Origin: an uncultured Anaerolineae bacterium | Lineage (GTDB): Bacteria; Chloroflexota; Anaerolineae; JACIWP01 | Length of the DNA: 41,458 nt | Assembly: GCA_938049385.1 (NCBI GenBank) | Contig: CALIBQ010000045.1 | Span: 1 to 41,458, forward strand | Direction: 5' to 3' | In this document: positions 15,073-28,072 of the stretch, piece by piece | Position numbering within the stretch: the stretch's first letter is position 1 | Layout: every line of letters starts with the position of its first letter | Program-made: the position numbers and the translations under genes | The notes under the pieces: model-generated | Database searches by the model: none | Seen by the model: the letters and a program-made list of their open reading frames with translations, nothing else | What the model was told of the DNA's origin: nothing

Positions 15073-16023
15073 ATGCATGCTGAGAGAGAGGGAAAGACCC
15101 GAGTGGATACCCGGCCCTGCATCCTCACTGCCATGCCGGCGGGAATCGAGGGTATGCCGACCGTTCTGCGTCAGGCGCAGGAATTGGTGCGCCGGCATGT
15201 GGAAGCCCTGGTGCAAGAGACGGTCCTCTTTGAATGGGAGTCGGCCGATTCCCCTCTCCGTCCGACGGATGCTCCGCTTCTGCTTCTCAGGCCGGGCGCC
15301 GGCGCGCTCCTGAACGCCCAACGCCTTCTGGAGCTTGCTGAGCTGTTGCGCCGGCACCCAGACGCTCAGCTCACGCTTCCACTGACAGACTTCACCACAC
15401 TCGGCGAGGAGAGCGTGCCGCGCAGTGCTAGCACCTGTTTTGCCGTCGAGAGCGGCGCTGACTTGGTGGTGGCTGGACTGCATGCTGACTGTCCCATCGA
15501 ACTGCGCCGTCTGGCCGGATCCCTGCAAGCACATACAGCGAATTTCACGGCAGTTGTGCGCGCCTTCACCGACCGCGATGCCGAGGTAGCAGTTATCGGA
15601 CCGATTGCGCCCCATACCTGGCGCTATCTGGAGGATGAGGTGGCCTGCCGCGTGCGGGTGTACGCTGACGGGCACGGCCGGCACGCCGGCCTGGCCGCCG
15701 AGCTGTACCGCCAGGTGGGCGCGGCCCGCTGGCGGGAGTGGCTGAGCGGCATGGCGGATGTCATTATTATGGACACGCGCCAGTTTTTCGCCGGCCTGTC
15801 CCCGTACCCCTCGCCGGAGGATTTCCTGGCCTCTGACCTGGGCCGGCCGGCGGAGGTAGCCCATCCGCTCCTGCGCGAGCTGACCGAGGCGGCCCTTGAG
15901 GGGAAACCCCCGCTGATATTGGGCGGCCCGATGCTGTTGAACGGTGGGCTGTACGCCCTGGTCGAGACTGCCTGGCGCATCGGGCCGGATGTGGACAGGG
16001 GCTATCACATTCGCTGGAAATAA
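15073..16023 (+). CDS. Uncharacterised protein controlled by the glycine riboswitch
   Basis: Up to 316 residues, soluble, with no signal peptide or membrane helix. I do not recognise the family. Visible features: a proline/glycine-rich start (CILTAMPAGIEGM), an alternating beta/alpha pattern with segments such as ADLVVAGLHADCPIEL, EVAVIGPIAPHTWRYLEDEV, ADVIIMDTRQFFAGLSPYPS and PPLILGGPMLLNGGLYALVE, and no known nucleotide- or PLP-binding motif. It is the first gene after the riboswitch terminator and is followed, after 131 bp with a fresh promoter, by the glycine/serine one-carbon operon. A role in glycine use or sensing is therefore likely by position only. The start is uncertain: ATG 15073 has a distant GGAG, and GTG 15103 or ATG 15154 (GAGGGT upstream) are alternatives. 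Confidence 0.7.
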   Translation: MHAEREGKTRVDTRPCILTAMPAGIEGMPTVLRQAQELVRRHVEALVQETVLFEWESADSPLRPTDAPLLLLRPGAGALLNAQRLLELAELLRRHPDAQLTLPLTDFTTLGEESVPRSASTCFAVESGADLVVAGLHADCPIELRRLAGSLQAHTANFTAVVRAFTDRDAEVAVIGPIAPHTWRYLEDEVACRVRVYADGHGRHAGLAAELYRQVGAARWREWLSGMADVIIMDTRQFFAGLSPYPSPEDFLASDLGRPAEVAHPLLRELTEAALEGKPPLILGGPMLLNGGLYALVETAWRIGPDVDRGYHIRWK

Positions 16024-16154: not shown

Positions 16155-19100
16155 ATGCCGGATAAGGATTATGCCAGCCTGTATTTCGGCGCGGATTTAT
16201 CCAGCGTTGACCCGGACATCCACCGCCTCATTGAGCTGGAGGAAGAGCGTCAGAAACGCCGTATTATCCTCATCCCCTCGGAGAGCATCGCTCCGAAACC
16301 GGTGCGAACGGCCCTCGGCTCCGTGTTCAATAACATTTACGCTGAGGGATATCCTCCCACGCGCATGAGCAAGGATGATGAGGATGTCCTGCTCGACTTT
16401 GACTGGGAGCTGGCCAATTACCGCCGCTATGCGGACCGCCGTTTCTATAAGGGTGCCGATTACGTGAACTTTATCGAGTGCCTGGCACAGCGGCGGGCGG
16501 CGCACCTGTTCGCCACCGATGCCGTGCCGGCGGACCAGATTCACGTCAATGTCCAGGCCCTCTCGGGCGCGGCCGCCAACCTGGCGGTGCTGGAGACGCT
16601 CATGCGGCCGGGCGAGGTGCTGATGGGTATGGACCTGTTCCAGGGCGGCCACCTGACCCACGGCTCGGAGTTCAATTTCTCCGGCAAGCGCTATCGGGTG
16701 GTCTCGTACGGGGTCAGCAAGCGCACCGAGAAGCTGGATTACGATGAAATTATGGAGCTGGCCAAGGCGCATCGCCCGAAGGTTATCATCGCCGGCTACA
16801 CGTCCTACCCCTGGGCGCCCGATTGGAAGAAGTTCCGGGAGATTGCCGACGCAGTGGGCGCCTATCTCATGGCGGATATCTCGCATCCCGCCGGCCTGTG
16901 CGCCGCCGGCTATTACCCCAACCCCATTGAATACGCGCATGTCATCACCTTCACTACCCATAAGACCATCTGCGGCCCGCGCGGCGCCGTGATCATGACC
17001 GCAGACAAAGACCTGGGCGCGGCCATTGATATGTCGGTCTTCCCGGGCGCGCAGGGCGGTCCCCACACCAATAAGTTTGCCGCCATGGCGGTCGCCTTCA
17101 AGATTGCCACCACCCCGGAGTTCAAAGACTTGATGCGGCGCATCGTGGAGAACGCCCAGGCGTTGGGCGAATCCCTGAAAAGGCGCGGCCTGAATCTGGT
17201 GTACGGCGGCACCGACACGCACCTGCTGATGGTGGACCTGCGGCCCATCAAGGGCAAGCTCGGCTATCCGCTCTACGGTGAGATCGTGGTGCGCATCATG
17301 GAGCTGGCCGGCCTGATCGCCAATAAGAACACCGTGCCGGGCGATGAGCAGACCGCCCTGGGGCGCGGCGTGCGCCTGGGCACCCCTTGGGTGTCTCAGC
17401 GGGGCATGGGGCCGGCGGAGATGGACATCATCGCCGACGCTATCCACAAGATCATCACCAACATCGAGCCGTTCACCTACGAGGGCCTCATCGGCACCCT
17501 GCCGCGCGGCAAGATTTCCCTGGATGTGCTGGAAGAGGTCAAGGAGCAGGTGGCGAAGCTGGCAGAGTCCATGCCGGCGGATACCGAATCGCGCGGCACG
17601 ACCTATCCGCACTACTTCTTCATGAACGAGCCGCGGGTGCGGCGCAACGGCCGCGAGGTGCTTGGCATCTGGGGCGAGCGGGCGGAGCCATTCATCCAGC
17701 AGGTGTGCACGGCAAACCTGGCCGGCATGAAGGTCGGCGAGGTGCGCAGGGGCTTCCTGCTGGATAAAGACGGCCGGGTGATGGATGACGTCTTCGTGCA
17801 GTACAACGGCGAGGACGCCCGCCGGCAGGTGCGCTACCTGATGGCGGTGCACGCCGAGCGTGCCGGCCGCATCACCGCCTGGCTGCGCGGCCTGGCCGAT
17901 GGCTATATCCTCTTCGACAATGACGACATCTTCCGCAAGGTTGAGGGACCGGTAGTCGTGGCGGATTGGGTCTCTCATCCGGAGCTGGAGAAAGACGCCG
18001 ACGCCTTCCTGAGCGCCATCGCCGGCCAGGATAATCCCGTCCAGCTCGGCAACCCGGCGGCGGCCAAAGAGGCGTTCGAGAAATATCCCGCCATGTTTGA
18101 CCTGCGCAAATCGTACTTCATCGGCCAGGCGGCTCTGCTGGCTGCCGGCGCCCATGCTTCCGGCAACAACAAGGTCGAATGGAGCTGGCAGGAGCCGCAG
18201 GATGCGCCGCTCAAGCGCACCTGCCTGTATGAAGAGCACCTCAAGCTCACGAAGCGCATCATCCCCTTCGCCGGCTGGGAGATGCCGGTCTGGTACACGG
18301 GCGTCAGCGATGAGCATCGGGCCACGCGCGAGACGGCGGCGCTGTACGACGTCTCCCATATGGGCGTGTTGGGCATCACTGGCCGCGACGCCGAGGCCTT
18401 CCTCGATCTGGTGACCACCAACTACGTCCGCTGGTTGGAGGACGGCCAGTCGCAGTATTCCTACCTGCTGACCCCTGACGGCGAGCCTATTGATGACATC
18501 ATGATTTATCGGCGCGGGCCGCACAACTTCCTGATGGTGGTCAACGCGGCCAACGCCGATAAGGACTGGGATTGGCTGAACGCTGTCCTGCAGGGCAAGG
18601 TCATCATTGACCGGGATAATCCGGCTATGACCTTTGAGGGGAATGTTACGCTGAAGAACCTGAAGGACCCGGTCAACGGCGCGGAGCAGAAGGTGGACAT
18701 CGCCCTGCAGGGGCCGGCCTCCCGCGAAATCCTGATGCGGCTGGCGGATGATGATACGACGCGGCGCGGTCTGGCGCGTCTGCCGCGCACGGAACTGATG
18801 GATGCCCGCTGTGCCGGCCTGGACCTGGTCATCGCCCGCACCGGCTACACCGGCGAGGATGTGGGGTACGAGATTTTCGTGCATCCCGATGAGGCGCCCA
18901 AGCTGTGGAACGCCATCCTGGATGCCGGCAAAGACCTGGGCGTGAAGCCGGCTGGCCTGGCGGCGCGCGACTCCACTCGCACCGAAGCCGGCCTGCCGCT
19001 CTACGGCCATGAGATCGCCGGCCCCTATCATATCATCCCGCATGAGGCCGGCTTTGGCTCCTACGTCAAGTTCCACAAGCCCTTCTTCATCGGGCGCAAG

Positions 19101-19475
19101 ACCATCATCGCCAAGGCGAAGGACAGCACCATGCAGATCATCCGCTTCCGCATGACTCAGAAGGGCGTCAAGGTCCCCAAGCTCGGTGATCCGGTGGTCA
19201 ATGCGCGCGGGCGCTGTATCGGCCATGTGACCTCGTGCGCCATTGACTATGAAGGCTTCCTCGTCGGGCTGGCATATGTGGAGCGCAAAGCGGCCAAAGA
19301 GGGCAGTCAGATCGGCATTTTCGTCCTGCCGGAGAAGCCGGAGCCGGAGAAGCAGAAGCCGGAGTTTGTCCCAGGCGATTCCACCCTTCTGCCCTTCACG
19401 GCCACCATCCTGCCGCGTTTCCCGAAAAAGGAAGACCTGAGGAAGGTGGTTCCTGAGACCGGCGTCAGCGCCTGA
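16155..19475 (+). CDS. glyA/gcvT: Serine hydroxymethyltransferase - degenerate GcvT-like segment - aminomethyltransferase GcvT fusion
   Basis: 1106 residues in one uninterrupted frame. Residues 1-~485 are a serine hydroxymethyltransferase, a PLP enzyme that exchanges serine and glycine with tetrahydrofolate: [25 protein letters not shown] lysine Lys270 in [11 protein letters not shown], and [13 protein letters not shown]. Compared with standard GlyA it reads SES instead of SEN and has an insert after [10 protein letters not shown]. Residues ~495-670 repeat a GcvT-like pattern ([42 protein letters not shown]) in degenerate, shortened form. Residues ~684-1075 are a complete GcvT, the T-protein that releases ammonia and methylene-THF: [62 protein letters not shown]. 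Physical fusion would couple methylene-THF production to its use. gcvH follows after 61 bp. Confidence 0.93.
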
Positions 19476-19536: not shown

Positions 19537-19944
19537 ATGGCTATCAAAATTGATCCCAACTGCTACTACACCAAGTCCCATGAGTGGGTGCGCGTGGAGG
19601 GCGATGAGGCCTGGGCCGGCCTGACCGATTACGCCCAGGACCTGCTCAGCGACATCGTCTACGTCGAGCTCCCCGGAGAGGGCGATTCTTTCAAACAGGG
19701 CGAGGTCTTCGCCACGGTGGAATCGGTCAAAGCCGCTTCCGATATCTACATGCCCCTCAGCGGCGAAGTCCTGGAGGTTAATGAGCAGTTGGCCAACGCG
19801 CCGGAGCTGATCAATAAGGACCCGTACGGCGAGGGCTGGCTCATTAAGTTTACCCCATCGGACCTGTCCGAGCTGGGCAACCTGATGGGCCCCGATGCGT
19901 ATGAGAAGTTTATCAAGGAGGAAGAGGAGAAAGGGGGACACTAA
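19537..19944 (+). CDS. gcvH: Glycine cleavage system H protein
   Basis: 135 residues, the lipoyl carrier that shuttles the aminomethyl intermediate between P, T and L proteins. The lipoylation site is Lys65 in TVESVKAASDIY. The N-terminal HEWVRVEGDEAWAGLTDYAQDLLSDIVYVELP and C-terminal YGEGWLIK segments match the family, and the length is normal apart from a short acidic tail (KEEEEKGGH). The start has AGGAGA upstream. Its TAA overlaps the gcvPA ATG by one base (TAATG), indicating translational coupling. Confidence 0.97.
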   Translation: MAIKIDPNCYYTKSHEWVRVEGDEAWAGLTDYAQDLLSDIVYVELPGEGDSFKQGEVFATVESVKAASDIYMPLSGEVLEVNEQLANAPELINKDPYGEGWLIKFTPSDLSELGNLMGPDAYEKFIKEEEEKGGH

Positions 19945-21302
19945 TGGTATACGTTCCCAATACCGATAAAGACCGGGCCAAGATGCTGGCTGTCATCGGT
20001 GTGGAGAGCGTAGATGACCTGTTCTACGACGTTCCGAAGGAACTGCGCTATCCGCAGATCGAACTGCCGGAGCCGGTCTCGGAGATGGAGGTACTGCGCG
20101 AACTGCAGGAGATGAGTGAGGCCAATGTGGATCTCCTGCACACGCCGAGCTTCCTGGGCGCCGGCGCGTACTACCACTTCATCCCGAGCGTCGTGGACAC
20201 AATCATCAGCCGTTCAGAGTTTTACACGGCCTATACGCCCTACCAGCCGGAGGTCAGCCAAGGGACCCTGCAGGCCATCTTCGAATATCAGACCATGATC
20301 TGCATGCTCACCGGCATGGATGTTGCCAACGCCTCGCACTATGACGGCGGCACCGCTACGGCAGAGGCGGTCATCATGGCGGTGGCGGCCGGCAAGGGCA
20401 AGCGCCGGCGCATCGTCGTCTCTCCCCGTCTGCACCCCGAATACATCCAGGTGGCGCGCACCTATGTGCAGGGCATGGACATTCAGGTGGTGGGGGATGA
20501 GAATCCCCATGCGGCGCTGGAGAATATCGCCGGCCTGATTGACAGCAACACCGCCGGCGTCATCGTCCAGGTGCCCGACTTCTTCGGCACCATCGAGGAT
20601 TACGGCTCCCTCCAGGCCCTGGCGGATAAGGCGCATCAGGCCGGCGCGCTCTTCATCGTCGCCGTGTATCCGATTTCCCTGGGCCTGCTCAAGCCGCCGG
20701 CGGAATACGGCGCGGACATTGTCCTGGGCGAGGGACAGCCTTTGGGCAACCCGCTCAGCTTCGGCGGGCCGTACCTGGGCTTCTTCGCCTGCAAAGAGGA
20801 ATATGTGCGCCGTATGGCCGGCCGGCTGGTGGGGCAGACGGTGGATACCCAGGGCCGGCGCGGCTTTGTGCTGACCCTTTCCACCCGCGAACAGCATATC
20901 CGCCGCGAGAAGGCCACCTCCAATATCTGCACCAACCAGGGACTGAATGCGCTCGCCGCCGCGGTGTACATGTCGGCGCTGGGCAAACAGGGCCTGCGCA
21001 AGGTGGCCGAGCTGTGCTACCACAAGGCGCACTACGCCGCCAGCAAAATCGCCGAAATCCCCGGCTATCGCCTGCTCTCGGACAAGCCTTTCTTCAATGA
21101 GTTTGTGGTGCGCTGTCCGAAGCCGGCGGAAGACATCAACCGCTACCTGTTCGAGGAATGGGGCATCATCGGCGGCTTCGAGGTGGCAAAGGTCTGCCCT
21201 GGGCTGGAGGACAGCCTGATGTTTGCGGTGACGGAGATGAACACGCGCGACGAGATCGACGCGCTGGTAGAAGCTTTGCGGGAGGCGGCGAGCCATGACT
21301 AA
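19944..21302 (+). CDS. gcvPA: Glycine dehydrogenase (decarboxylating) subunit 1
   Basis: 452 residues, the alpha half of a heterotetrameric P-protein. With subunit 2 it decarboxylates glycine with PLP and passes the aminomethyl group to lipoyl-H protein. Typical stretches include FLGAGAYYHFIP, FYTAYTPYQPEVSQGTLQAIFEYQTMICMLTGMDVANASHYDGGTATAEA, SFGGPYLGFFA and ATSNICTNQGL. The PLP lysine is in subunit 2, as expected for the split form. It overlaps gcvH by 1 bp and gcvPB by 8 bp. The split form is common in Firmicutes, Chloroflexota, Thermus and archaea. Confidence 0.97.
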   Translation: MVYVPNTDKDRAKMLAVIGVESVDDLFYDVPKELRYPQIELPEPVSEMEVLRELQEMSEANVDLLHTPSFLGAGAYYHFIPSVVDTIISRSEFYTAYTPYQPEVSQGTLQAIFEYQTMICMLTGMDVANASHYDGGTATAEAVIMAVAAGKGKRRRIVVSPRLHPEYIQVARTYVQGMDIQVVGDENPHAALENIAGLIDSNTAGVIVQVPDFFGTIEDYGSLQALADKAHQAGALFIVAVYPISLGLLKPPAEYGADIVLGEGQPLGNPLSFGGPYLGFFACKEEYVRRMAGRLVGQTVDTQGRRGFVLTLSTREQHIRREKATSNICTNQGLNALAAAVYMSALGKQGLRKVAELCYHKAHYAASKIAEIPGYRLLSDKPFFNEFVVRCPKPAEDINRYLFEEWGIIGGFEVAKVCPGLEDSLMFAVTEMNTRDEIDALVEALREAASHD

Positions 21303-22797
21303 AATTGTGGAACCCTTGATCTTTGAACTGAGCTCGCCAGGCCGCGTGGGAGCTGTTCTGCCGGAGCTGGATGTCCCGCCGGCGGACATCCCGGCGGAGC
21401 TGTGCCGCGCGGACCTGCCCCTGCCGGAAGTCTCAGAAGTAGACGTGGTGCGGCACTTCGTACGCCTGTCGCGCATGAACTACGGGGTGGACCTGGGGAT
21501 GTATCCCCTGGGCTCCTGCACCATGAAGTACAATCCCAAGGTCAATGAGGTGGCGGCGCGCCTGCCTGGCTTTGTCTACACCCATCCGTATCAGCCGGAG
21601 GACCAGGTGCAGGGCAACCTGCAGTTGATGTGGGAACTGCAGGAGATGCTGAAAGCAATCAGCGGGTTTGCCGGCGTGTCCCTTCAGCCGGCGGCCGGCG
21701 CCCACGGCGAACTGACCGGCATCCTCATCATGCGGGCGTACCTCTGCGACCAGGGAGAGACCCAGAGGGATACCATCCTCATCCCGGACTCGGCGCACGG
21801 CACCAACCCGGCTTCCACGTCTATGGCCGGCTTCAAGGTGGTGGAGATCAAATCCGATGAGCGCGGCAACGTGGACCTGGAGCATCTGAAGGCCAACCTT
21901 AATGACCGCGTCGTCGGCCTGATGCTCACGAACCCCAACACGCTGGGGCTGTTCGATGAGCATGTTTGCGAGGTCAGCCGGCTGGTGCATGAGGCGGGCG
22001 GCCTGATGTACGGCGACGGCGCCAACATGAACGCCATGTTGGGGATTGTCAAGCCGGCGGACCTGGGTATTGACGTCATGCACTTCAACCTGCACAAGAC
22101 CTTCTCCACGCCCCACGGCGGCGGCGGACCGGGGAGCGGCCCGGTCGGCGTGGTGGAGAAGCTGGTGCCCTATTTGCCCGGCCCCATCGTGGACATCCAG
22201 GTGGTGGGCGAGGAGGAGCATGCCGGCCATGCCCACGAAGGCGAAGAGGAGATGGTCGAGGTGTTCTTCCGCCTGGTCATGCCGGCGAAAAGCATCGGGC
22301 GCGTCAAGACCTTCTACGGCCACTTCGGCGTGATGATCCGGGCCTATACCTATATCCGCATGCTGGGTGCCGAGGGTATGCGCCGCGTGGCGGAGGACGC
22401 GGTCATCAACGCCAATTATCTCATGGCCAAGATCAAGAAGGTCTATCCCCTGCCCTACGACCGCCTGTGCAAGCACGAGTTCGTGGTGGAGGGCAAGCTC
22501 AAAGATGCCCCAAACGTGCGCGCGCTCGATATCTCCAAGCGCTTGATTGACTACGGCGTGCATCCGCCCACCAACTACTTCCCGCTCATCGTCCCTGAGG
22601 CGCTGATGATCGAGCCGACGGAGACGGAAAGCCTGGAGAGCCTGGATCACTTCGCCGATGCCATGCTCCGCATCGCGGAGGAGGCGAAGACCAATCCGGA
22701 GCTCCTGCACGAGGCGCCGCACAACACGCCGGTCAGTCGGCTTGATGAGGTCGGGGCGGCACGCAATCCGATCCTGCGCTGGAAGCCGGCGGAATAA
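21295..22797 (+). CDS. gcvPB: Glycine dehydrogenase (decarboxylating) subunit 2
   Basis: 500 residues, the PLP-binding half of the P-protein. The cofactor lysine is Lys268 in NLHKTFSTPHGGGGPGSGP. Other family stretches: MNYGVDLGMYPLGSCTMKYNPK, LQPAAGAHGELTG, PDSAHGTNPAS, and YFPLIVPEALMIEPTETES near the C-terminus. It starts 8 bp before the gcvPA stop, so the two subunits are probably made in equal amounts by translational coupling. It is the last glycine-cleavage gene here; the dihydrolipoamide dehydrogenase (L-protein) must be elsewhere. A strong hairpin follows 23 bp after the stop. Confidence 0.97.
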   Translation: MTKIVEPLIFELSSPGRVGAVLPELDVPPADIPAELCRADLPLPEVSEVDVVRHFVRLSRMNYGVDLGMYPLGSCTMKYNPKVNEVAARLPGFVYTHPYQPEDQVQGNLQLMWELQEMLKAISGFAGVSLQPAAGAHGELTGILIMRAYLCDQGETQRDTILIPDSAHGTNPASTSMAGFKVVEIKSDERGNVDLEHLKANLNDRVVGLMLTNPNTLGLFDEHVCEVSRLVHEAGGLMYGDGANMNAMLGIVKPADLGIDVMHFNLHKTFSTPHGGGGPGSGPVGVVEKLVPYLPGPIVDIQVVGEEEHAGHAHEGEEEMVEVFFRLVMPAKSIGRVKTFYGHFGVMIRAYTYIRMLGAEGMRRVAEDAVINANYLMAKIKKVYPLPYDRLCKHEFVVEGKLKDAPNVRALDISKRLIDYGVHPPTNYFPLIVPEALMIEPTETESLESLDHFADAMLRIAEEAKTNPELLHEAPHNTPVSRLDEVGAARNPILRWKPAE

Positions 22798-23694: not shown

Positions 23695-23723
23695 TTGACA
23701 AGCGAAGCATTTGGGAGTAATAT
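23695..23723 (+). promoter_or_regulatory. Promoter of the DSD1-family gene
   Basis: TTGACA (23695-23700), a 17-bp spacer and TAATAT (23718-23723), about 44 bp before the ATG at 23767. The TTG that could be mistaken for a start codon at 23695 is the -35 box. Confidence 0.75.
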
Positions 23724-23766
23724 GCCCTCGACATCGGGCGTTGGACTGCGATGGAGAGGGCATATT

Positions 23767-24867
23767 ATGTACCAAGCATGCAGTCAGGTCGGCATCCCCA
23801 AAGAAGCGCTGGATACCCCCGCCCTGTGGGTGGACCTGGACATCATGGAGCACAACATCCAGACGCTGGCGAATTTTTTCCGTCGGGCTGGGGTAGGGTG
23901 GCGGCCCCACATGAAGGGGATCAAGGTGCCGGCCATTGCCCATAAACTCCTGCAGGCCGGCGCGCACGGGGTTACCTGCGCCAAGCTGGGTGAGGCGGAG
24001 GTACTGGCGGCCGCCGGCATCCGCGATATCCTTGTCGCCAACCAGGTGGTAGGTGCGCAGAAAGTGCGCCGGCTGGTGTACTTGCAGAAGGTGGCGGATG
24101 TCATGGCGGCGGTGGACAGCCTGGAGAATGCCCAGGAAATTTCCACGGCCGCACAAGCGGCCGGCGTACAGGTGCGCGTCCTGGTGGAGGTGAATACCGG
24201 CATGAACCGCTGCGGCGTGGAGCCGGGGGAGCACGGCGTGCGCTTTGCCCAGCAGGTGGCGGAACTGCCGGGACTGCGCTTCGCCGGCTTCATGTCCTGG
24301 GAAGGCCATGTTGTGGCAATCCCTGACCCGGAGGAAAAGCGCAGGATATGCACCGAATCTGTCGGCAAGCTGGTGCACACAGCCGAAATGGCGCGGCAGG
24401 CCGGCCTTCCAGTAGAGATCGTCTCCTGCGGAGGGAGCGGGAGCTACTGGATCACCGCCGGCATACCGGGCGTGACGGAGATTCAGGCCGGCGGGGCGGT
24501 CTTCACCGATGTGACGTACCGGCGCTGGGGGGTGCCGCTGGTGCCGTCGCTCTTCCTGCTGGCGACGGTCATCAGCCGACCGACAGCGACGCGCGCCGTG
24601 TGCGATGCCGGCCGCAAAGCGCTGGACAACGTCGTCTCCACATCGGAGGTGGTGGGGGTGAACGGCGTGCGCGTGAGCGTGCTCTCGGCGGAGCACGGCA
24701 TCCTGGAGCTGGCCGGCCCGGAAGTGCCCCTGCGGGTGGGCGATAAGATTGACATCATGGTTGGGTACGGCGATTTGACCGTCTATAAGCACGATTTTTT
24801 GTACGGCGTGCGGAACGGCATCGTGGAGGTACAGTGGGAGGTAATGCCGCGCAGTGCACTGCGCTAG
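23767..24867 (+). CDS. DSD1-family PLP enzyme (D-threonine aldolase / D-serine dehydratase-like)
   Basis: 366 residues, fold-type III. The N-terminal alanine-racemase-like barrel holds the PLP lysine in the family motif RPHMK (Lys50). Next come VTCAKLGEAEVLAAAGI, LVEVNTGMNRCGV and SCGGSGSYW (phosphate-binding region). The C-terminal beta domain reads EIQAGGAVFTDVTY and LSAEHGILEL, where the EHG pattern is typical of the metal-binding C-terminal part of this group. Family reactions are cleavage of D-threonine to glycine and acetaldehyde, or deamination of D-serine. Sequence alone does not decide which. Position beside the glycine cleavage genes favours a glycine-yielding aldolase. Start ATG 23767 has GAGAGGG upstream. 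It has its own promoter. Confidence 0.85.
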   Translation: MYQACSQVGIPKEALDTPALWVDLDIMEHNIQTLANFFRRAGVGWRPHMKGIKVPAIAHKLLQAGAHGVTCAKLGEAEVLAAAGIRDILVANQVVGAQKVRRLVYLQKVADVMAAVDSLENAQEISTAAQAAGVQVRVLVEVNTGMNRCGVEPGEHGVRFAQQVAELPGLRFAGFMSWEGHVVAIPDPEEKRRICTESVGKLVHTAEMARQAGLPVEIVSCGGSGSYWITAGIPGVTEIQAGGAVFTDVTYRRWGVPLVPSLFLLATVISRPTATRAVCDAGRKALDNVVSTSEVVGVNGVRVSVLSAEHGILELAGPEVPLRVGDKIDIMVGYGDLTVYKHDFLYGVRNGIVEVQWEVMPRSALR

Positions 24868-24970: not shown

Positions 24971-25564
24971 ATGTTGACCGATTGGGCTCGCAAGAGCTTC
25001 CGTTGGGCAGTGGAACCCGTGGCCAGGGCGCTGGCGGCGTTGGGATTGACCCCCAATGGTCTGACCTTTCTGGGGCTACTGCTGAATATCGGTGCGGCCT
25101 ATCTACTGTACCTGGGAGAGTTTTTCTGGGGCGGCCTGGCGGTGGCCTTTGCCAATGCCTTTGATGCGCTGGATGGCGCGCTGGCCCGACAGACCGGCAA
25201 GGTCAGCACCTTCGGTGCCTTCTGGGATTCCACCATTGACCGCTATTCTGAAGCCTGTCTCTATTTCGGCCTGACGGCATATTATCTCCGCACAGCTCAA
25301 CCCCATCTGGTACTGCTGGCCTTCGCGGCAGTCGTCGGTTCTCTGCTGGTCAGCTACGCGCGGGCGCGCGCTGAGGGCGTGGGGGTGGAATGCAAGGAAG
25401 GCCTGCTGACCCGCGTTGAGCGCACCCTGTTGTTGATCCTTTTCCTCCTGGTGCAGAGGATGGACATTGGGTTGTGGGTGCTGGCTGTCCTGGCCCATCT
25501 GACCGCTTGGCAGAGGATATATGCGGTCTGGCGGAAGACGGACAACGGCCGGCAGTCCCTGTGA
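24971..25564 (+). CDS. CDP-alcohol phosphatidyltransferase
   Basis: 197 residues, an integral membrane enzyme of phospholipid synthesis. The family signature D-x2-DG-x2-AR-x8-G-x3-D-x3-D is complete (Asp65, Asp68, Gly69, Arg73, Gly82, Asp86, Asp90). These residues bind the metal ions and CDP-diacylglycerol and supply the catalytic base. Several hydrophobic helices surround the site, for example LTFLGLLLNIGAAYLLYLG, LLAFAAVVGSLLVSYARA and TLLLILFLLVQ. The acceptor alcohol (glycerol-3-phosphate, inositol-phosphate or other) cannot be told from sequence. The VSYARARAEG stretch is seen in phosphatidylglycerophosphate and inositol-phosphate synthase types. ATG 24971 is the start that fits the family; the Shine-Dalgarno (GGGAG) is distant. 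Confidence 0.88.
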   Translation: MLTDWARKSFRWAVEPVARALAALGLTPNGLTFLGLLLNIGAAYLLYLGEFFWGGLAVAFANAFDALDGALARQTGKVSTFGAFWDSTIDRYSEACLYFGLTAYYLRTAQPHLVLLAFAAVVGSLLVSYARARAEGVGVECKEGLLTRVERTLLLILFLLVQRMDIGLWVLAVLAHLTAWQRIYAVWRKTDNGRQSL

Positions 25565-25665
25565 GCGAGGATATGCAGAGTATATCGCCTGGCTCATCCC
25601 ATGGTTCGCATATTCCCCTCGCGGCATCTTCCCCCCATCCAGCGAACCATGCAACTGGACCCTGC

Positions 25666-26628
25666 ATGAACTATCCCCTGGTTTGGGCGCGCAACCTGCA
25701 GAAGCGCTTCGGCGAATTGCACGCGGTTCGTCGGGTGGACCTCGACGTGTGGGCTGGGGAAGTTGTGGTGCTGTTAGGGCCGAACGGTGCCGGCAAGACC
25801 ACGACGGTGCGCATGCTCTCGGCCATCCTGGCCCCCACCGAGGGCGAAGCCAGGGTGGCCGGCCTCGACGTGGTACGGGACGCCGTGCAGGTGCGGCGGA
25901 AGGTTGGTTTGCTGACCGAATATCCTGGCCTGTACGCGCGCATGCGCGCCCCGGAATACCTGTCCTTTTTCGCGGAGCTGTACGGAGTGCCCGAACCACG
26001 CCGGCGGGAACGCATCCCTGCCCTGCTGGAGCAGTTCGGGCTGTGGGATGTGTGCCACCAGCCGCTGGCCCAATATTCCAAGGGTATGGCGCAGAAACTG
26101 GCCTTCATTCGGGCGATCTTGCACGACCCTCAAGTGCTTTTCCTGGATGAACCCACCGCGGCGCTGGACCCGCTCAGCGCCAAGCTGGTGCGCGATACCA
26201 TCCGCGAGCTGAAGGGTCAGGGGAAAGCCGTGCTGGTGTGCACCCACAATCTGCTGGAGGCGCAGGAGCTGGCGGACCGCATCCTGGTGCTGGGCAGAGG
26301 GGAGGTGCTGGCAGAGGGCCGGCCGGCCGAGCTGTTCCAGCGCTACATCCGGCAGGCCGTATGTGAAATCCGCTTCGCCGGCCCCTGGGATGAAGCGTGG
26401 CGGGAGATTATCACCTCACTGGCGGCGATAGAAGCTATCGGAGACGGGTTTGTGCGCTACCGCACGGAGAATGTGACGCTGGTCAATCCGCCCCTGATCG
26501 CGCGTTTGAGCGCCGCCGGCATGCCTGTGGTCTCGGTGCAGATACTGTCTGATAATATGGAAGGGGTATACCTGGCGATCGTGGCGGAGAAAGGACTGCC
26601 GGCCGAGGAGGGCGGGGATGCACGGTGA
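25666..26628 (+). CDS. ABC transporter ATP-binding protein
   Basis: 320 residues, a single nucleotide-binding domain of the ABC-2 exporter class. Walker A GPNGAGKTT (Lys44), signature YSKGMAQKL (a divergent LSGGQ), Walker B VLFLDEPTAALDP and H-loop CTHN are present, followed by a ~90-residue C-terminal domain. It will energise the adjacent permease, whose gene overlaps its last 11 bp. The substrate is unknown. The start at ATG 25666 (MNYPLVWARNLQKRFG) matches the usual family N-terminus but has a weak Shine-Dalgarno. ATG 25573, just after the phosphatidyltransferase stop, would add 31 non-conserved residues and is an alternative. Confidence 0.9.
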   Translation: MNYPLVWARNLQKRFGELHAVRRVDLDVWAGEVVVLLGPNGAGKTTTVRMLSAILAPTEGEARVAGLDVVRDAVQVRRKVGLLTEYPGLYARMRAPEYLSFFAELYGVPEPRRRERIPALLEQFGLWDVCHQPLAQYSKGMAQKLAFIRAILHDPQVLFLDEPTAALDPLSAKLVRDTIRELKGQGKAVLVCTHNLLEAQELADRILVLGRGEVLAEGRPAELFQRYIRQAVCEIRFAGPWDEAWREIITSLAAIEAIGDGFVRYRTENVTLVNPPLIARLSAAGMPVVSVQILSDNMEGVYLAIVAEKGLPAEEGGDAR

Positions 26629-28072
26629 AGGGGCCGGCGAGGAAATCCGACTCATGCGCGTCATCATCCGCAGGGAACTGCGCGATACCCTGCGGGACTG
26701 GCGTATTGCCATGCCCATCGGCATCCTGACCGTGGTCTTCCCTGTGCTGATGGCCGGGGTCGCCCAGCTTGCGGTATATATCGTCAACCGGTACGGGGCC
26801 TCTCTGCTGGCAGAGCGGGTGACCCCGTTCCTCACGCTGGTGGTGGGATTCTTCCCCTTGTCCTTTTCGCTGGTGATCGCTCTGGAGACATTCGTCGGCG
26901 AGAAGGAGCGCAACTGCCTGGAGCCACTGCTGGCGGCGCCTATCAGCGACAGGGCACTGTACATGGGCAAACTGCTGGCGGCGGTGATACCGCCTCTGCT
27001 TGCGGGCTATGCCAGCATCGGGCTGTATGCGCTGACCCTGCGCCTCGTCCTGGGTGGGCTGAAGCTTCCGCCATCGCTGTATGCCCAGGCCCTCGTCCTC
27101 ACCACGTTGGAAGCGTTCGTGATGGTCGCCGGCGCGGTGGTGGTTTCCGCACACACCACATCCGTGCGCGCTGCGAACCTGCTGGCCAGTTTCATTATTG
27201 TGCCCATGGCGCTCGTCCTTCAGGTGGAGAGCATCGCGCTTTTCTGGGGTCGCGAAGGGGCACTTTGGTGGTTCGCGCTGGCGCTGGGGGTGCTGGCGAT
27301 CATCCTGGTGCGCGCCGGCCTGCGGCTGTTCCAGCGCGAGCATCTGCTTTCTCGCGGCCGGCAGGGCCTGCCTCCGAGGCGCCTCTGGCAGATGTTGAAA
27401 GAATACTGGAGCGCGCCGGCGTATGCCGGCGGTGAACCTTTCTCGCTCCGGCGGGTGTATTTGCGCGATGTGCCGGCGGTATTGAAGGAGAGCCGGCGGG
27501 CACTGGTGTGCGTGGGCGCGTCGGTGGTGATGGCCGCGCTGTTAGGCCGCTACCTGGCTCAGCAGTATCCCCTGCCGGCGGATTTGCTGGATTTCCCGGC
27601 GCTCTCGGCCAGCACATTTCGTGGGCTGTCCATGCCGGAGGGATTACCGCAGTTCACCGTTCCGGGGATTTTCTGGAACAACGTGCGCGCCCTGCTGGTG
27701 GAAGCCTGTGTCGGCGCGCTCTCACTGGGCATGGGGGCTTTGCTGTTGTTGATGGTTCCCATGATGCTGATCGGATATTTCGCCGGCGCGGTGGAGCAGG
27801 TCGGCGGCGGGGTATCCCGCTTCCTGGTGGCATTTATCCTTCCGCACGGCGTGGTGGAACTGCCGGCGGCATTTGTCGCCACGGCGCTGGCCCTGCGCGT
27901 CGGCCTGGCACTGATCACGCCTCATCGCGACGGCTCGGTCAGCCGGCAACTGCTGGAAACTTCCGTGGATTTCGTCAAGGTCTTCGTCTTTCTGGTCGTG
28001 CCGCTGTTGCTGATCGCGGCGGCGGTGGAGACACAGATCACCCCACGGGTGATCATGATGCTGTACCGCTGA
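26618..28072 (+). CDS. ABC-2 type permease fused to a SpoIIM-like membrane domain
   Basis: 484 residues, polytopic. The first ~240 residues are an ABC-2 permease: a first helix (IAMPIGILTVVFPVLMAG), a helix-pair region with ALETFVGEKERNCLEPLLAAPISDRALY (the ABC-2 motif) and several helices. The last ~150 residues (from about 345: FWNNVRALLVEACVGALSLG, then FILPHGVVELPAAFVATALALRVGLAL, ending in a C-terminal helix) follow the SpoIIM/DUF95 pattern: NN at the start, a central HGxxELPA motif and repeated small-residue helices. SpoIIM proteins act in sporulation membrane events in Bacillus, but the domain is widespread elsewhere with unknown function and often sits beside ABC-2 genes. It is coupled to the ATPase by an 11-bp overlap. 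Confidence 0.78.
   Translation: MHGEGAGEEIRLMRVIIRRELRDTLRDWRIAMPIGILTVVFPVLMAGVAQLAVYIVNRYGASLLAERVTPFLTLVVGFFPLSFSLVIALETFVGEKERNCLEPLLAAPISDRALYMGKLLAAVIPPLLAGYASIGLYALTLRLVLGGLKLPPSLYAQALVLTTLEAFVMVAGAVVVSAHTTSVRAANLLASFIIVPMALVLQVESIALFWGREGALWWFALALGVLAIILVRAGLRLFQREHLLSRGRQGLPPRRLWQMLKEYWSAPAYAGGEPFSLRRVYLRDVPAVLKESRRALVCVGASVVMAALLGRYLAQQYPLPADLLDFPALSASTFRGLSMPEGLPQFTVPGIFWNNVRALLVEACVGALSLGMGALLLLMVPMMLIGYFAGAVEQVGGGVSRFLVAFILPHGVVELPAAFVATALALRVGLALITPHRDGSVSRQLLETSVDFVKVFVFLVVPLLLIAAAVETQITPRVIMMLYR

Follow-up and report, generated by a model that had tools for sequence, protein, structure and literature searches.

The window, that is the whole 41,458-nucleotide stretch of Anaerolineae DNA analysed here, carries one open reading frame (16155-19475, + strand; ATG start, 1106 amino acids, no internal stop) that encodes, in this order, a full serine hydroxymethyltransferase (SHMT), a degenerate middle segment derived from GcvT (hereafter MID) and a full GcvT. 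With a probability of roughly 70%, we read the product as a bifunctional serine/glycine one-carbon enzyme with a pseudo-GcvT docking domain in its middle. It apparently joins known enzymes in a conserved and so far undescribed fusion with a repurposed pseudo-domain: we found no published description or biochemistry of it in the open-licence literature, an earlier mention being possible, and Pfam and NCBIfam have no model for the SHMT-GcvT combination or for MID. The original prediction of a single-chain SHMT-GcvT fusion was confirmed, as the frame is uninterrupted and both domains are matched by Pfam. Pfam returned SHMT for the first part and GCV_T for the last, and MID searched on its own also matched GCV_T (Table 1).

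Table 1. Coordinates of the fusion gene, its parts and the glycine cleavage genes that follow it.
Feature	Residues	Position	Strand	Basis
SHMT domain	1-478	16155..17588	+	PF00464 E=2.7e-119; PRK00011 425.4 bits (cut-off 335)
Stretch with 26-residue SHMT insert, flanked by Y62/E64 and Y98 of the active site		16356..16445	+	spacing comparison
Codon of the PLP lysine	K270	16962..16964	+	
MID, truncated degenerate GcvT folate domain	479-684	17589..18206	+	PF01571 E=1.1e-9 alone
MID loop WLRxLSDGYxxFDxxDxxxKxxGPVxV	575-602	17877..17960	+	conservation
MID tail with YFIGQ, counterpart of the GcvT folate-domain end (FFIGR)		18105..18140	+	alignments
Complete GcvT (T-protein)	685-1106	18207..19472	+	PF01571 E=1.8e-84 (residues 691-968)
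gcvH (lipoyl H-protein)		19537..19944	+	PF01597 E=1.3e-44
gcvPA (P-protein subunit 1)		19944..21302	+	PF02347 E=1.3e-139
gcvPB (P-protein subunit 2)		21295..22797	+	PF21478 E=2.1e-26; PF02347 E=6.1e-11

Two enzyme domains at a glycine cleavage locus

The first domain scored above the curated cut-offs of both Pfam (398.8 bits against 27, the match falling in two stretches) and NCBIfam. We then looked at the equivalents of B. stearothermophilus Y51, E53, Y61, H122, D197, H200, K226 and R357. These residues, which are Y62, E64, Y98, H166, D241, H244, K270 and R407 in the window, were kept in 84/84 fusions; the claim of a full SHMT is confirmed. In a fold search with the full-length model, the matches listed were all SHMTs, with a TM-score of ~0.95 for the B. 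stearothermophilus SHMT target. Compared with stand-alone SHMT (GlyA; PF00464/PRK00011), the fused domain has the same fold and catalytic residues, and it is 45% identical to the T. thermophilus enzyme (2dkj) in the structural-search alignment, but it differs by a 26-residue insert near the active site and by the C-terminal MID-GcvT extension. The stretch from Y62/E64 to Y98 measured 30 residues in 84/84 fused SHMTs against 4 residues in 27 stand-alone SHMTs, the comparison being made of those with the canonical 4-residue spacing once unrelated frames in the set had been put aside. The insert is absent from both NCBIfam SHMT models, and we rejected the idea that it is shared with the PRK13580 subfamily, whose model has no insert at that place. 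A stand-alone SHMT of 467 residues in another genome (G036) carries the insert that we otherwise saw in fused or split SHMTs. Finally, fluorothreonine transaldolase (TIGR04506), in which an SHMT-type domain is likewise accompanied by a further one, gave a weak match (83 bits against a cut-off of 650), but its extra domain and its chemistry are different.

The terminal domain also passed the family cut-offs, with 308.5 bits for PRK00389 (cut-off 300) and 279.5 bits for TIGR00528 (cut-off 235.85). By alignment, its catalytic aspartate is D781 and its pterin-site residues are E906 and R938. In the numbering of the T. maritima T-protein (1woo), Y83, D95, D96, Y100, N112, N115, Y188, G190, E195 and R227 were kept in 84/84 fusions. 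On these scores and folate-site residues, the GcvT appears complete, as had been claimed, and similar to stand-alone GcvTs (PF01571, TIGR00528). It differs from them in sitting behind SHMT and MID, in branching separately from the stand-alone GcvTs of the same class, and in the weak score of its C-terminal barrel (PF08669, GCV_T_C; 20.8 bits against a cut-off of 25.9), where the full-chain model has strands. Searches with the terminal GcvT also matched dimethylglycine dehydrogenase/oxidase, the sarcosine oxidase alpha subunit and TMAO demethylase. These proteins likewise belong to one-carbon pathways and have a GcvT-type folate domain fused to a second catalytic domain, but their partners are oxidases or demethylases and not SHMT, and none of these matches contained an SHMT or a duplicated pseudo-GcvT.

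Directly downstream of the fusion, gcvH, gcvPA and gcvPB follow head to tail. The source genome is a 3.37-Mb draft of 85 contigs, 98% complete, with the fusion on contig 45. The gene directly 5' of the fusion (15073-16023, +) is uncharacterised, and homologues of it precede the fusion in ~15 distinct loci, Acetothermia and Bipolaricaulota included. Longer homologues contain GGGSGALL and D-I/V-D-T-P-x-D-L motifs that resemble those of MobA/IspD-type nucleotidyltransferases, while Pfam and PDB profile searches gave no reliable match in support of this likeness. The copy in the window has apparently lost its N-terminal part.

A GcvT-derived middle segment and its conserved loop

Several lines of evidence indicate that MID comes from GcvT. 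First, the window's MID alone reached 38.3 bits with PF01571 (cut-off 25.6), over profile positions 53-126 only. Second, a profile built from 29 MID sequences matched solved GcvT and sarcosine oxidase structures, with a best E-value of 2.8e-15, and was closest to GcvT. Third, the AlphaFold2 model of MID (mean pLDDT 86.2, pTM 0.82) found IBA57, GcvT, YgfZ, sarcosine oxidase and DMGDH as its best Foldseek matches. The GcvT ancestry proposed for the middle segment is therefore supported, structure prediction having placed GcvT/YgfZ/IBA57/DMGDH-type folds on top, and by the model the window's MID has part of the GcvT folate-domain fold. The same profile matches, model and Foldseek results led us to reject any other fold.

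The segment had been described as a shortened GcvT, which holds for the window but not for its origin, as many relatives have a near-complete copy of ~290-370 residues. Among 84 distinct fusions, MID is short (169-234 residues) in 55, the window's with its 211 residues included, and long (257-373 residues) in 29. The long MIDs align with the GcvT folate domain over nearly its full length (in an Aerophobetes genome, for example, with GcvT positions 2-304, E=2e-49), and for this reason we take the window's MID, by alignment, to derive by truncation from a folate domain that was once complete. In the tree, a branch with 100/100 support separates the long MIDs from all GcvTs, whether fused, split or stand-alone; as this branch is long, any of these groups may be its sister. 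In a quick tree built from the SHMT and terminal GcvT portions, the long/short label changed 9 times, with at least 6 changes forced by well-supported branches: the shortening of MID took place in parallel, several times over.

What MID has lost is the folate site. Even in the long forms, the equivalents of Y83 and Y100 (T. maritima numbering) were kept in 0/29 sequences, Y188 in 7/29, and E195 and R227 in 12/29 each, with D96 kept in 26/29; the window's copy lacks the whole stretch in which Y188, E195 and R227 would fall. Because of these losses, MID appears to be a pseudo-GcvT that is unlikely to bind folate in the manner of GcvT. The original prediction had offered a folate-binding or structural relay: the residues speak against the folate-binding part, and a structural role is the part that we would retain. 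The same residues led us to reject the idea that MID is another active T-protein or an additional folate site. YgfZ and IBA57, proteins of the folate-binding fold that are not aminomethyltransferases, are among the best fold matches of MID, and the MID tail K-x-Y-F-I/V-G-Q resembles the conserved cysteine motif KGCYIGQE of YgfZ. MID differs from both in lacking the cysteine of this motif (RKSYFIGQ in the window, KPYFVGQ in relatives), in having lost much of the domain and in sitting between two enzymes.

One part of MID stands out by its conservation. Among 28 fusions retrieved without the loop pattern, the loop had a mean pairwise identity of 63.2%, against 34.5% for the part of MID before it and 22.8% for the part after it. 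It is as conserved as the catalytic domains of the same 28 fusions (61.2% for SHMT and 57.1% for GcvT), and its identity is still 57.3% when the nine residues that make up the loop pattern are left out. W576, D582, K595 and G598 are invariant in the fusion alignment, and the loop was spared in all MIDs through the repeated shortening. Between the window and same-genus relatives, the dN/dS of MID is 0.08-0.12 compared to 0.08-0.11 for GcvT; MID is under purifying selection.

The whole chain was modelled by AlphaFold2 with a pLDDT of 90.2 and a pTM of 0.88. As this pTM is high for 1106 residues, the three parts are predicted to sit in a defined arrangement. The loop (around residues 584-593) had a pLDDT of ~75 in the isolated MID and of ~93 in the full chain, in two runs with different alignments, and this higher confidence is suggestive of the loop packing on SHMT or GcvT.

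Distribution of fused, separate and split genes

By scanning one genome per species for 84,980 species with the MID alignment, we matched 353 relatives. In nearly all of the best 80 of these 353, which we mapped, SHMT, MID and GcvT lie in one ORF, and MID was present in every fusion mapped. The best 80 cover Chloroflexota (Anaerolineae, Thermoflexia and Ardenticatenia), Planctomycetota, Spirochaetota, Aerophobota, Acetothermia/Bipolaricaulota and Poribacteria, as well as Thermoplasmatota archaea; most are metagenome-assembled genomes (MAGs), for which individual taxon assignments may be wrong. The closest named relative of the window's MID is an Anaerolineae MAG, with 94% identity in the middle piece. 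A MID search of 60 related genomes placed the match inside open frames of ~1050-1310 amino acids in many of them, and of 121 genomes sampled from the phylum, ~26 had the fusion, counted as two matches in one frame of more than 1000 amino acids. Genes for gcvH or gcvP lie near the fusion in ~21 distinct loci. In trees, sequences of other phyla are interspersed among those of Chloroflexota, which suggests that the fusion spread horizontally.

We then asked which genes accompany the fusion in 60 genomes of the same class, the window's included. The P-protein family was present in 60/60. The fusion was found in 35 genomes, an SHMT-MID protein with a separate GcvT in 2 (G005 and G042), and neither in 23. 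Where the fusion is lacking, most genomes encode a canonical GcvT separately, usually on the same contig as gcvP. Of the 35 fusion genomes, 26 gave no other clear SHMT, including the single-contig G012 and G029; 8 keep a canonical SHMT as well, the window's genus among them, and the stand-alone SHMT of G036 is of the fused type. Since separate genes are absent from many fusion genomes, the fusion appears to take the place of both glyA and gcvT in these, and the 26 genomes lend indirect support to a putative serine-glycine interconversion by the fused SHMT. The window's own genome has a canonical 472-residue SHMT and a divergent 438-residue GcvT-like protein on two other contigs (C57 and C14), and this second GcvT-like protein groups away from the fused GcvTs.

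The SHMT-MID proteins of G005 and G042 end right after the MID loop, with the separate GcvT gene adjacent in G042 and on another contig in G005. That MID stays on the SHMT and ends just past the loop argues that the loop may serve the SHMT side or hold the separate GcvT. In the tree, these two GcvTs are sister to all fused GcvTs, so they may be ancestral or a product of fission.

Proposed function and competing readings

Both ends look catalytically competent, and by their residues they would be active. We propose that SHMT and T-protein work with the H-protein and the two P-protein subunits encoded beside them and with an L-protein from elsewhere. Glycine cleavage and SHMT would then be coupled, for a net conversion of 2 glycine into serine + CO2 + NH3 + NADH or in the opposite direction. 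Within the chain, MID would be a pseudo-enzyme copy that lost its folate site and now serves as a docking spacer, a role that we infer, with the conserved loop fixing the two catalytic modules relative to each other. Canonical SHMTs are dimeric, and by analogy the chain would probably form an SHMT-type dimer through its SHMT part. Least certain in this proposal is that proximity may speed methylene-THF transfer between the two folate sites. Some observations count against the bifunctional enzyme with a docking domain: the canonical SHMT also kept in 8 fusion genomes, the loop residues D588-K595, not all of which are kept in the two split proteins, and the high variability of MID outside the loop, from which parts of MID may be dispensable.

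A rival reading, possible but with the odds against it, is methylene-THF channelling, in which folate would remain bound or tethered while moving between the GcvT and SHMT sites, along a path shaped by MID and the insert. Methylene-THF is the shared product and substrate of the two sites, the domain arrangement is predicted to be fixed, and the clade-specific insert lies between SHMT active-site residues. Moreover, formiminotransferase-cyclodeaminase and DHFR-TS are bifunctional folate enzymes reported to channel; a direct hand-over is plausible. Against channelling, the folate site of MID is lost, and a fusion that is the only SHMT found must supply the rest of the cell with methylene-THF too. 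We are rather doubtful of the wider version, that the pseudo-GcvT gained a loop function that aligns the two folate sites and promotes direct transfer, making the fusion a widespread one-chain SHMT-T-protein metabolon.

It is improbable that the fusion does no more than keep SHMT and GcvT co-expressed at a 1:1 ratio, with MID as a passive spacer. Both enzymes do belong to one pathway and lie at glycine-cleavage loci, and MID varies outside the loop and was shortened many times, but a passive spacer does not agree with a loop as conserved as catalytic domains, with purifying selection, with the presence of MID in every fusion mapped or with the defined domain packing that is predicted. We give very little credence to MID as a decaying remnant of a tandem GcvT duplication without present role: folate-site residues are lost, and in many lineages about half of the domain is gone, but such neutral debris is disfavoured by the low dN/dS, by the invariant loop residues and the survival of the loop through shortening, and by a MID kept across phyla and still folded in the model. 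Last, a sequencing or assembly error joining separate genes, conceivable for a draft of 85 contigs, was ruled out by the taxonomic survey, in which we met this three-part ORF again in independent assemblies of many phyla, in same-genus genomes and in the single-contig G012 and G029.

In photorespiration, the reductive glycine pathway and one-carbon metabolism in general, SHMT works in direct succession with glycine cleavage, and direct passage of methylene-THF is hard to test with separate enzymes and a loose complex. With a conserved single-chain version, the hand-over question becomes testable with one gene, and reductive glycine pathway engineering gains a natural fused module. MID is also a clear example of how a catalytic domain can turn into a conserved non-catalytic one, which was shortened in parallel in several lineages but kept the same loop each time.

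Shortly after the gcv operon, the window encodes an Alanine-racemase-N + D-serine-dehydratase-like protein (23695-24867, +; D-threonine aldolase/D-serine dehydratase type), which possibly has a glycine/serine role too. Further on, a 484-residue frame (26618-28072, +) with an ABC-2 membrane region and a SpoIIM domain adjoins an ABC ATPase (25474-26628).
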